Origin: Bacilli bacterium | Lineage (GTDB): Bacteria; Bacillota_I; Bacilli_A; RFN20; CAG-826 | NCBI GenBank assembly: GCA_024408235.1 | Contig: JAKSVF010000007.1 | Location: forward strand, 1-58,207 | Direction: 5' to 3' | DNA: 58,207 nucleotides | Shown: piece after piece, positions 26,780 to 54,810 of the stretch | Numbering within the stretch: the stretch's first letter is position 1 | Layout: each line of letters begins with the position of its first letter | Translations under genes and position numbers: made by a program | Notes under the pieces: model-generated | Databases searched by the model: none | What the model was told of the DNA's origin: nothing | What the model saw: only the letters and a program-made list of their open reading frames with translations

Positions 26780-27082
26780 TTGGCATTTTGATAAACGTGT
26801 GTAATATGGCCACATAGCATTGAAGGGAAATAGTACCTTTCGAGTAAGACTTGAGCGAGCCGCTGATGGTGAGAGGGCGGTGTCTGAGGCGATTGGGAAC
26901 GCGTCCTGGAGCTGATTCCTGAAATTAGTAGGGAACTCCGTGTTCGCACGTTATAGCGACTTTGGGTTACTAACTGACCCGGAAAGGCAATTGCCGTGAG
27001 GCTGTTGCAAACTAAGGTGGCACCACGTTATTAAAGTAACGTCCTTAGGCTAAGTAGCTTAGGGACGTTTTGTTTTATAGAA
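26780..27082 (+). promoter_or_regulatory. T-box riboswitch leader, probably arginine-specific
   Basis: Promoter TTGGCA (26780-26785), 16 bases, TAATAT (26802-26807). The leader has AGTA elements at 26832 and 26843, a GAGCGAGCCGCTGATGGTGA stem I apex, and GAA-CGC-G at 26897-26903 where the specifier is expected: CGC, Arg. The T-box AGGTGGCACCACG is at 27015-27027; its TGGC would pair with a tRNA end bearing discriminator G. A terminator (AACGTCC/GGACGTT plus T-run) lies at 27038-27080. Uncharged tRNA-Arg would favour readthrough into the transporter and argGH. The specifier call is inference. Confidence 0.85.
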
Positions 27083-49515: not shown

Positions 49516-49610
49516 GCAAAAAGTTGAATATGACACCATAAAAATGATACTTTTGGGTGATAAATCAACAATCATTTGACTTGTAATATTTGCCTAGAAA
49601 ACTATACTTT

Positions 49611-49715
49611 ACTCATCGGGAATGATGTCTCCCGGAGCAATGCTCGAACCGCCTTATTAAGCTGATGACGTCTATGCCTCTTTTTTGGCGTAGATTTCAT
49701 GGCTTTATTTTTTTG
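49611..49715 (+). promoter_or_regulatory. Fluoride riboswitch (crcB motif)
   Basis: Stem GGGA/TCCC (49618-49621, 49630-49633) closes loop ATGATGTC; its GATGTC pairs with GACGTC (49667-49672) to form the pseudoknot. AACCGCC and GCTGATGAC match the conserved crcB core. A small GAGC-AAT-GCTC hairpin is inserted. TCTATGCC (49671-49678) can instead pair with GGCGTAGA (49687-49694), a terminator-like switch. Promoter: TTGTAA (49581-49586), TATACT (49603-49608). Confidence 0.85.
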
Positions 49716-49727
49716 GAGGAACTCATA

Positions 49728-50930
49728 ATGATTTACTCACTCGGACTTATACTAATCCTAGGATTTATCCTTGGATGGTTATTAGATAAAATCCACATTC
49801 CAGGACTTGTAGGAATGATACTCATCGGCTTGTTTTTCGGACCGTATTTCCTAAATGTGATAAGCCCTGATTTACTCAATATTTCTAGTGAATTAAGACA
49901 GATAGCGTTAGTCATCATCCTTACAAGAAGCGGACTCAATTTAAATTTCAGCGACCTTAAGAAAGTCGGAAGGAGTGCAATACTTATGTGCTTCCTGCCT
50001 GCGTGCTTCGAAATAGCAGGAGTTACTCTCGGCGCACATTATCTTTTGCATTTATCCATATTTGAATCGATGCTCTTGGGTTCTGTCCTTGCAGCAGTAT
50101 CTCCTGCAGTCGTATCTCCACGCATGATCAAACTCATCGATAACGGATATGGAAAAGAACATCACGTTCCTGAACTCATCCTCGCTGGAGCGTCTGTAGA
50201 CGATGTCTTTGTCATCGTTCTCTTCTATGCGTTCCTGGGCTTAGTCCAAACAGGCGAGTTCAACGTCTTATCAGTTTCTCTCATTCCGGTGTCTATCCTG
50301 CTTGGCGTCGCTTTAGGAGTGGGGGTTGGATTCGGCGTTGCTGAAGTGTTTAAAAGAATCAACTTACCAGTATGGGCGGAGATAATAATCACTTTATCAT
50401 TGTCGTTCTTGATGATCGGCTTAGAGAACTGGGTTAAACCATGGATATCCATCTCATCACTTTTGGGCATCATGGTGATGGGTATGATTCTTCTTTTGAG
50501 AATCAAGGCAAAAGCCAAAGAGATATCGAATGGATATAACAAACTCTGGAAAGTGTTTGAAATCCTCTTGTTTGTCTTAGTCGGTGCGTCAGTAGATTTA
50601 TCTTATTTGAAGAACGATGGCTGGATGGCATTGCTTGTATTGATAATCGGTCTAATCTGCCGTTCCATCGGTGTTATCATTTGCATTATCGGCACAAAAC
50701 TCACCTGGAAAGAGAGGGTATTTGCAATTATTTCATATTTGCCAAAGGCCACAGTTCAGGCCTCAATTGGCGGCATTGCAGCGTCCTTGATGCTTCCATG
50801 CGGAGGAATTATCTTAACTGTATCTGTCTTGGCGATAATGATAACCGCGCCTATTGGAGCGTTATTAATAGATACTCTTCATCCGATTCTTTTAAAGAAA
50901 GAAGCGCAACTTGTCGTTGAGTCGAATTAA
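49728..50930 (+). CDS. Cation/proton antiporter (CPA family), fluoride-regulated
   Basis: 400 residues from ATG 49728, just after GGAGG. About twelve membrane segments with CPA features: LGFILGWLLDKIHIPGLVG at the start, LTRSGLNL, SAVSPAVVSPRM-like loop (AAVSPAVVSPRMIKLI) and GASVDDVFVIVLFYA with the conserved Asp pair. It exchanges protons for a cation in known members. Because a fluoride riboswitch precedes it, it probably helps under fluoride stress, either by pH or ion balance or by moving fluoride; the latter is speculative. Confidence 0.85.
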   Translation: MIYSLGLILILGFILGWLLDKIHIPGLVGMILIGLFFGPYFLNVISPDLLNISSELRQIALVIILTRSGLNLNFSDLKKVGRSAILMCFLPACFEIAGVTLGAHYLLHLSIFESMLLGSVLAAVSPAVVSPRMIKLIDNGYGKEHHVPELILAGASVDDVFVIVLFYAFLGLVQTGEFNVLSVSLIPVSILLGVALGVGVGFGVAEVFKRINLPVWAEIIITLSLSFLMIGLENWVKPWISISSLLGIMVMGMILLLRIKAKAKEISNGYNKLWKVFEILLFVLVGASVDLSYLKNDGWMALLVLIIGLICRSIGVIICIIGTKLTWKERVFAIISYLPKATVQASIGGIAASLMLPCGGIILTVSVLAIMITAPIGALLIDTLHPILLKKEAQLVVESN

Positions 50931-53343: not shown

Positions 53344-54462
53344 TCATTCGTATTTTCCCCAGTATTTCGCTAAAGGGGCGACCTTTTTGTTGATGGTTGA
53401 TATTAATTGCTTTAAATATTCTTCTTTAAAACCCATTTTCTTTCCGACAATGATGATATCATCGTCGCTAGGTTCTCCAACCCAGTTACAACCTAGAGCG
53501 TGTTCTTTTATATATGGGGTATACGTCAAATCATAAGCGGGCGAAAGCCTATATTTTCTATCCTTTTCGCTCCAGTAAAATGAGACATTTCTTGAATGGT
53601 CATCTCTGTTTTTCGCCCTTATGTTGAATATCATCATTCGCAGAGCCTGGTCCATGTCTTCGGAGCATAGATATCTCACAGCTTGCAAGAATGATAGATA
53701 ATCCAACTGTGGGTAGTTGATGTCTGTCTCGGTCAATCCTGCTAGCGATATGACGTGGATTCTTTTCTCGCCATCTCTATCAAAACGTTTTGTTGCGAAG
53801 AGTTTTACGCCTTTCTTGGTCTCAATTAACCTGAATGGTGGGACGTTTATGCCACAAGAGGAAGCGATGATGTTGTAATCGTATTCCATCTCGCTTTGCC
53901 ATTTTGGATCCCTATTTGAAGGGAATTTTAATATCCAGTCCTCACCGTCTATTTGTACAAAGGCTTTTGGCCTCGAGCCTCCAACCGAGCCGGAACTTCT
54001 GAATACTTGTGAGAAAGACAATTGATTTAAAGGCTCGTTTTTCTCTATTGCCCTAGAAGCATCAAGGAGTGCGTCAAAATCATTGCTGCATTCGCTTTCA
54101 ACTTTAAACTCTGGTTCAAAATCCAAACCGCCCAAAGACGTATTATTCAGAAGTAGCAATCTGTGGAATAGGCTTGTGTATCTAGGGTCGTATCCGTTAT
54201 CTGTCAGCCATCTATCAACCAATCTGTTGCCCCATGAATCTGGAAGGCAATCGTAGAATGCGCCATCTAGATATCCAAAGAATCTTTTATCTGAGCGAAA
54301 GACGCCCTCCTTTAGAGGTAGTTTTATTGGCGATATGGAAAACCCATTTGCAATCCATTCCTTTTTATATTGAAATGCAGTGCAATCATCATTCAAGACC
54401 AATGAACCGACCGTTTGACCTCTATATTTGACCACCACTCGATTGAAGTCTGTGATTTTCAT
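53344..54462 (-). CDS. hipA: HipA-type serine/threonine kinase toxin
   Basis: 372 residues; GAGGAG upstream, inside the end of hipB. HipA features: LPDSWGNRLVDRWL, glycine-rich GSVGGSRPKAFVQIDGEDWI (ATP region), catalytic loop NRDDHSRN and the metal-binding AYDLTYTPY. The catalytic Asp and Asn are in place. HipA kinases phosphorylate tRNA synthetases or similar targets and slow growth. Four-base overlap with hipB means coupled translation. Confidence 0.87.
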   Translation of the reverse strand: MKITDFNRVVVKYRGQTVGSLVLNDDCTAFQYKKEWIANGFSISPIKLPLKEGVFRSDKRFFGYLDGAFYDCLPDSWGNRLVDRWLTDNGYDPRYTSLFHRLLLLNNTSLGGLDFEPEFKVESECSNDFDALLDASRAIEKNEPLNQLSFSQVFRSSGSVGGSRPKAFVQIDGEDWILKFPSNRDPKWQSEMEYDYNIIASSCGINVPPFRLIETKKGVKLFATKRFDRDGEKRIHVISLAGLTETDINYPQLDYLSFLQAVRYLCSEDMDQALRMMIFNIRAKNRDDHSRNVSFYWSEKDRKYRLSPAYDLTYTPYIKEHALGCNWVGEPSDDDIIIVGKKMGFKEEYLKQLISTINKKVAPLAKYWGKYE

Positions 54463-54752
54463 CTGAAGAACTCCTCGTAAGTCATATGGTTTTCAGGTTT
54501 AAAAAGCTTTGCAAAATCGGACTCAATACCAAGTGCAAATGCAATGTTGACTAGAGAAGAAAACGCTATTTTCCCGGTTTTCTCAAATATTCTATATGAG
54601 GCATAGCTCATCATGCTTTTCACTGCAAGATCCTTTTGAGTGATACGCCTGTTCTTGCGTATAGTCCTAATCTTGTTTGCAATGCTTAATTGGACTTTCT
54701 CCGGCGAGTCCTTGCCAATGATGTCATAAAAATCTAAATGCTGTCTTTCCAT
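54459..54752 (-). CDS. hipB: HipB-like XRE antitoxin
   Basis: 97 residues from ATG 54752. TATTAT (plus 54760-54765) is 7 bases before it and no ribosome site exists, so it is probably leaderless. XRE helix-turn-helix: RKNRRITQKDLAVKSMMSYASYRIFEK, read in two parts. It would repress the operon and bind HipA. The order antitoxin-toxin and the matching direct repeats upstream support this. Confidence 0.82.
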   Translation of the reverse strand: MERQHLDFYDIIGKDSPEKVQLSIANKIRTIRKNRRITQKDLAVKSMMSYASYRIFEKTGKIAFSSLVNIAFALGIESDFAKLFKPENHMTYEEFFR

Positions 54753-54753
54753 T

Positions 54754-54810
54754 GCCAATATAATAGCAACTTATAATCAAATCTCAATTAAAATGCTAAC
54801 ATAGTAGCAA
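54754..54810 (-). promoter_or_regulatory. hipBA operator repeats
   Basis: TTGCTATTATATTGGC (plus 54754-54769) and TTGCTACTATGTTAGC (54795-54810) are direct repeats on the minus strand, 41 bases apart (about four helical turns). One overlaps the -10 box. They fit HipB operators. Confidence 0.6.

Follow-up and report, generated by a model that had tools for sequence, protein, structure and literature searches.

The locus considered here lies in a window of 58,207 nucleotides (the whole stretch of DNA that was analysed, contig JAKSVF010000007.1 of the Bacilli bacterium assembly GCA_024408235.1). It consists of a fluoride riboswitch, an overlapping terminator hairpin and a gene for a cation/proton antiporter, all on the forward strand (Table 1). 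When the whole window was searched against all Rfam families, four matches exceeded the cut-offs: a T-box, two tRNAs (one of them truncated where the window ends) and a fluoride riboswitch (crcB motif, RF01734). The riboswitch match on the plus strand (40.3 bits against a gathering score of 34, E 9.7e-08) spans positions 1-64 of the 64 in the model and is the single RF01734 element of the genome.

Table 1. Features of the riboswitch-antiporter locus, with positions in the window.
Feature	Position	Strand	Basis
Promoter-like pair TTGTAA-16-TATACT, just upstream of the aptamer	49581..49608	+	9/12 matches
Fluoride riboswitch aptamer (RF01734)	49609..49681	+	40.3 bits, Rfam
P1 stem-loop GGGA...UCCC, loop carrying the 5' pseudoknot strand	49618..49633	+	Rfam, folding, sequence
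Extra hairpin GAGC-AAU-GCUC, between P1 and the AACC core	49635..49645	+	folding
P3, GC-C-UU / AA-GC	49651..49662	+	Rfam; bulged pairing read from sequence
Terminator hairpin	49659..49705	+	folding: -22.7 kcal/mol, z -5.84
3' pseudoknot strand GACGUC, shared with the terminator	49667..49672	+	Rfam, folding
U-tract (TTTATTTTTTT)	49704..49714	+	sequence
Ribosome-binding site GGAGG, 8 nt before the ATG	49715..49719	+	read from sequence
NHA (SLC9B)-core type cation/proton antiporter, 400 aa	49728..50930	+	PF00999, NHA2 alignment, predicted fold

The individual elements of the aptamer can be read directly from the sequence. P1 pairs 49618-49621 with 49630-49633, and the pseudoknot, originally predicted as GATGTC/GACGTC with one G-U pair, joins GAUGUC (49624-49629) to GACGUC (49667-49672) through six pairs, one of them U-G. 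The AACCGCC motif named in the same prediction was located at 49647-49653 and GCUGAUGAC at 49661-49669, giving both the six-pair pseudoknot and the conserved AACCG...GCUGAUGAC core (49647-49669) by which RF01734 members are recognized. P3 contains one bulged C on reading the sequence, at a place where Rfam marks a non-standard pair. All six pseudoknot pairs are also present in 59 of 78 aptamer contexts from relatives, a set of distinct contexts that nevertheless includes close relatives. The covariance score and every core element thus support the identification of the element as a fluoride riboswitch, as had been proposed, and in itself it is an ordinary example of its kind.

The original prediction did not include a terminator, and the hairpin that overlaps the aptamer emerged only in the present analysis. 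None of 200 shuffled sequences folded as stably; a consensus scan of the stretch raised no flag for this hairpin. Five bases out of six in the 3' pseudoknot strand are taken into its 5' arm, together with the 3' strand of P3, and aptamer and terminator are therefore predicted to be mutually exclusive, an expression platform that agrees, by its predicted fold, with RF01734 membership. Comparable terminators occur in 61 of the 78 aptamer contexts. Given this overlap of aptamer and intrinsic terminator, transcription should be turned on by fluoride; fluoride binding and read-through are presumed from the behavior of the family, and on this basis we infer a transcriptional ON switch. In the absence of fluoride, both 3' strands, that of P3 and that of the pseudoknot, would shift into the terminator and transcription would end before the ATG, and with fluoride and Mg2+ the pseudoknotted aptamer would keep the strand and allow the polymerase to read through to the antiporter. 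Strand exchange of this kind between aptamer and terminator has been described for fluoride riboswitches (PMC13273304; PMC11077080, both in the portions available), and the accessible part of the former, a 2026 study, reports functional variants extending through P3, as at this locus. The promoter-like pair upstream of the aptamer is weak, as the stretch contains two such sites against 1.5 expected by chance, which is not above chance.

The leader therefore shares with terminator-type fluoride riboswitches P1, P3, the six-pair pseudoknot, the conserved core and a terminator that takes up a pseudoknot strand, and differs from them in having the antiporter alone as its target and in carrying an optional hairpin between P1 and the core. 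This inserted GAGC-AAT-GCTC hairpin, which had been singled out in the original prediction, is real (arms 49635-49638 and 49642-49645) and folds together with P1; for so short a stretch its z-score is only -1.7. The junction between P1 and the core measures at least 9 nt in 64 of the 78 contexts, and 55 of these 64 contain a stem of at least four pairs, compared with 18.4 expected from shuffles. The hairpin was accordingly discarded as a special feature of this locus, being common in its relatives.

The gene downstream likely begins at ATG 49728, behind a GGAGG motif; a longer reading frame of 421 aa starts at 49665, inside the aptamer. The product matches PF00999 (Na_H_Exchanger) at 149.7 bits, against a cut-off of 26.2, and is predicted to have the NhaA-type fold, and the NCBIfam potassium/proton and CPA2 models match it weakly, below their own cut-offs. 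Neither a CLC-F protein (PF00654, with its GREGT/V and GEVTP motifs) nor a Fluc/CrcB protein (PF02537) is encoded by this gene, whose only match among these families is PF00999, in agreement with the earlier view that the riboswitch precedes a cation/proton antiporter rather than crcB or CLC-F. With a profile built from 53 relatives, the nearest solved sequence was mammalian NHA2/SLC9B2 (E 2.9e-67), followed by the next family, the Na+/H+ antiporter 1 of entry 4czb (E 7.3e-18).

Structural comparison is consistent with this placement and is less specific. The predicted model (pLDDT 87.4, pTM 0.84) returned NHA2 in the top Foldseek rows and also matched MjNhaP1 and NapA; in VIA-align, MjNhaP1 ranked first (Z 46.0, rmsd 2.3, 382 aligned residues) and NHA2 scored Z 39.8 (rmsd 3.2, 381 aligned). 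Structural similarity by itself is therefore not enough to pick out NHA2. The assignment to the NHA/SLC9B type depends instead on the ion site, where the two Asp, the Glu214-Arg431 pair, Lys459 and Thr461 of NHA2 (bison numbers) are all represented: E95, D158, D159, R312, K340 and T342 align with the ion-site residues, whose roles are taken from the accessible part of PMC8850199, and are invariant in 53 of 53 relatives. The cation/H+ chemistry consequently looks intact. The protein departs from NHA2 in its identity of about 33%, in its bacterial origin under a fluoride riboswitch, and in a tyrosine (Y337, likewise invariant in 53/53) in place of the site tryptophan. The extra N-terminal helix of NHA2, which has 14 TM, is absent, the protein starting near NHA2 residue 114-116, and it is for this reason classed as NHA-core type and not as an NHA2 orthologue.

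The pairing of riboswitch and antiporter was surveyed at three scales. Among 61 genomes (the source genome and 60 relatives), RF01734 gave 14 matches, of which 10 lie before an intact antiporter, two before a decayed one and one before none; the remaining match (25.7 bits), beside or inside what by eye is a GTPase-like gene, was taken as false. All 10 close relatives of the antiporter in these genomes (above 250 bits, that of the window included) have the riboswitch. Where the antiporter is decayed (two genomes), the riboswitch still scores about 50 bits; in the genome with no antiporter, the riboswitch scores 38.1 bits and the product of the next same-strand ORF, judged by eye, resembles a multi-pass membrane protein. 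A broader scan of named genomes covered 70 loci encoding antiporter relatives, with record titles that include Bacilli, Mollicutes, Clostridia, Bacteroidota and a Treponema MAG. A riboswitch at or above the Rfam cut-off lies upstream in 59 of the 70 (made up of 14/15, 12/16, 13/16, 13/16 and 7/7), and one of the 11 loci without it is truncated ahead of the start of the gene. In a 70-row tree, absence is scattered over 10 rows and requires nine changes, at least seven of them forced by supported branches, which, with the root placed at the midpoint, reads as repeated loss from a linked ancestor. Co-directional ORFs of at least 80 aa occur within 250 nt of the antiporter in 42 of the 70 loci; an operon partner was rejected, the largest group of alike ORFs having three members.

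The third survey comprised 395 genomes of the same class and yielded 92 above-cut-off fluoride riboswitches in 90 genomes, along with 119 genomes containing the antiporter at E up to 1e-30. The antiporter directly follows 83 of the 92 riboswitches; when weaker matches are included, 88 of 102 adjoin it, 83 of these 88 at a distance of 30-89 nt, and 87 of the 119 antiporter genomes have an adjacent riboswitch. Co-presence is correspondingly strong (83/7/36/269, Fisher 1.6e-47, a value that ignores kinship). The nine above-cut-off riboswitches that do not adjoin an antiporter match were read by hand: three precede an antiporter truncated where the contig stops (G265, G232, G166), two a decayed antiporter (G050, and G038 by DNA similarity to G050), one a CrcB pair (G118), two CLC-F-like genes (G279, G430) and one other genes (G274). 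The appearance of a CrcB pair and CLC-F-like genes in this small set indicates that exporters would have been recognized. In the last case a 41.1-bit riboswitch precedes ORFs of 239 and at least 343 aa that are not exporters by eye, and the same genome has another riboswitch before an antiporter. One further genome (G216:C6:22553-22849) carries tandem riboswitch matches of equal score, 157 nt apart, before a single antiporter, a possible double switch.

The gene also exists without fluoride control: the roughly 350 nt preceding 28 antiporters of the class sample contained no riboswitch match, even when E values as high as 0.5 were admitted. These 28 are the 32 antiporter genomes without an adjacent match less G314, G374, G477 and G232, in the last of which the riboswitch, at the end of a contig, precedes a truncated antiporter. 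Degenerate riboswitches before the unlinked genes were thus rejected (0 of 28 upstream stretches). Taken together, these surveys show the riboswitch-antiporter pairing to be old and systematic, and the originally proposed control of the antiporter by the riboswitch gains support from their adjacency, from the terminator that competes with the aptamer and from conservation of the pair in many species. As a separate observation, 350 plasmid records, mostly enterobacterial, contain a relative of the antiporter; beyond the first two, those viewed align with query residues 209-392 only, at 43% identity, and are mostly annotated as cation:proton antiporter, and the one plasmid locus examined lies among resistance genes with no fluoride core motif nearby.

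The known fluoride exporters are largely missing from this group. The original prediction had pointed to crcB elsewhere in the genome as informative, and no CrcB (PF02537) or CLC match was found there, which leads us to reject a hidden copy of either, with the caveat that at about 90.5% completeness an exporter could be missing from the assembly. CrcB is absent from all 61 genomes of the relatives search, the source genome included, and is present in three of the 50 antiporter genomes tested (out of 70). Since only 11 of the 395 class genomes have CrcB above cut-off, its absence alone proves little, and mutual exclusion of CrcB and antiporter was rejected as proof of replacement (p = 0.18, CrcB being too rare). 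CLC proteins were detected in 16 of the 61 relatives-search genomes and 31 of the 50 antiporter genomes, the two sets covered by the CLC-F survey. The C-terminal CLC-F motif, as given in the available text of PMC11139923, was found in none of 40 CLC loci (30 from antiporter genomes and 10 from relatives; rows that yielded no locus fall outside this set, namely G089, the second copies of G086 and G109, the fragment of G073 and seven rows of the relatives search). Bacteria of this group mostly do without the known exporters, whether or not they have the antiporter, and their absence is background.

An association between fluoride riboswitches and antiporters is as such already known, and the novelty implied by the original prediction is smaller on this account, as it is for the inserted hairpin. 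The accessible part of a 2024 review (PMC11139923) ranks Na+/H+ antiporters second to fluoride exporters in frequency among the genes associated with the riboswitch and proposes a role in pH homeostasis. The association it describes, citing Baker 2012, is of the same kind as that found here; the antiporter subfamily is not named in that part, whereas the gene in the window is of NHA/SLC9B-core type, stands alone and represents the main target in a whole class. In Clostridium difficile, the portion of PMC11477304 available describes a fluoride riboswitch with an antiporter gene (CD0656-7), where the antiporter is of NhaP type and follows a CLC gene in a two-gene unit, unlike the window locus, which has no CLC. 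Enterobacter cloacae has a six-gene fluoride operon under a fluoride riboswitch that contains crcB and metabolic genes (PMC5533749, available portion). No stand-alone, class-wide main target of NHA/SLC9B type was identified in the partial texts compared, and Baker 2012 may do so. At the level of titles and abstract openings, in a search with most subscription papers, including Baker 2012, outside its scope, no test of an NHA-type antiporter under a fluoride riboswitch was found. The point raised by this locus is an antiporter of NHA type that stands alone and is, across an entire class, the main target of the fluoride riboswitch.

The reading that we consider reasonably likely is a fluoride-induced transcriptional ON switch placed before a stand-alone NHA-core cation/proton antiporter, the main target in the class, here in a genome without recognizable CrcB or CLC. 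The antiporter is probably the main fluoride-response gene of many gut bacteria that mostly lack the usual exporters. It would most likely exchange Na+ (or K+ or Li+) for H+ and thereby change the cytoplasmic pH; the ion-site residues are shown here, and the ions, direction and benefit are presumed. HF entry, F- trapping and acid stress all depend on that pH. Two kinds of benefit are conceivable for a cation/H+ exchanger: it could take H+ out of the cell, or it could dissipate the pH gradient and so let HF leave. Because the cation site appears intact, such exchange is favored and ranked well ahead of direct fluoride export. The stand-alone placement of the gene counts against this preferred explanation, since a lone gene is more in keeping with direct export than with an auxiliary role in pH control.

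The second of these routes deserves separate mention. If the antiporter admits H+ against cation export, it would lower the pH gradient, and trapped F- could leave as HF; this is possible, if doubtful, and, as one direction of the favored exchange, its likelihood overlaps with that of the preferred explanation. Accumulation of F- follows the pH difference across the membrane, as established weak-acid chemistry dictates. The intact cation/H+ site is equally compatible with this direction. The available text of PMC11139923 describes HF as a weak acid that enters, acidifies the cell and is trapped as F-, and reports that tolerance to a lower homeostatic pH is frequent in fluoride-acclimated yeast; the same text, however, stresses acidification as a harm that antiporters counter.

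Transport of F- by the antiporter itself, with or against H+, would create a third exporter family beside Fluc/CrcB and CLC-F and appears unlikely. The gene is the stand-alone and near-exclusive riboswitch target in the class, its genomes seldom have CrcB (3/50) and show no CLC-F motif in 30 CLC loci taken from them, nor is it present in the 10 from relatives, the invariant Y337 sits beside the ion site where NHA2 has Trp, and a Drosophila NHA1 orthologue has been proposed as an H+-Cl- cotransporter (cited in the accessible part of PMC9174904). Every NHA2 cation-site residue is kept, however, both Asp included, and CrcB is rare with or without the antiporter (11/395), which makes the missing exporter unspecific. 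In its widest form, this possibility would make the riboswitch-linked NHA-core antiporters a third, unrecognized family that removes F- or HF by coupling to H+, and the sole expulsion system of a large set of gut bacteria, among the Bacilli, Mollicutes and Clostridia, that are mostly without CrcB and CLC-F, a proposal that we hold to be rather improbable.

That the adjacency is incidental, or the aptamer degenerate and insensitive to fluoride, could be argued from a score only moderately above the cut-off and from the mismatch or bulge in P3, and is highly improbable, given that the roughly 105 nt of aptamer and terminator are identical but for a single base in the window and in a 91%-identical relative and that the pairing is repeated in several phyla; a chance RF01734 match was likewise rejected by score, terminator and conservation.

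The usual account of bacterial fluoride resistance features two exporters, with antiporters as helpers. The pattern in this class would imply either that control of pH and cations alone is enough against fluoride or that an NHA2-related family handles fluoride, and either outcome would tell what riboswitch-linked antiporters are for.

Elsewhere in the window, the T-box leader lies at 26811-27049 (112.2 bits, Rfam), and two adjacent ORFs of 372 and 99 aa on the minus strand (53344-54758) look by eye like a HipA kinase and a small DNA-binding partner.
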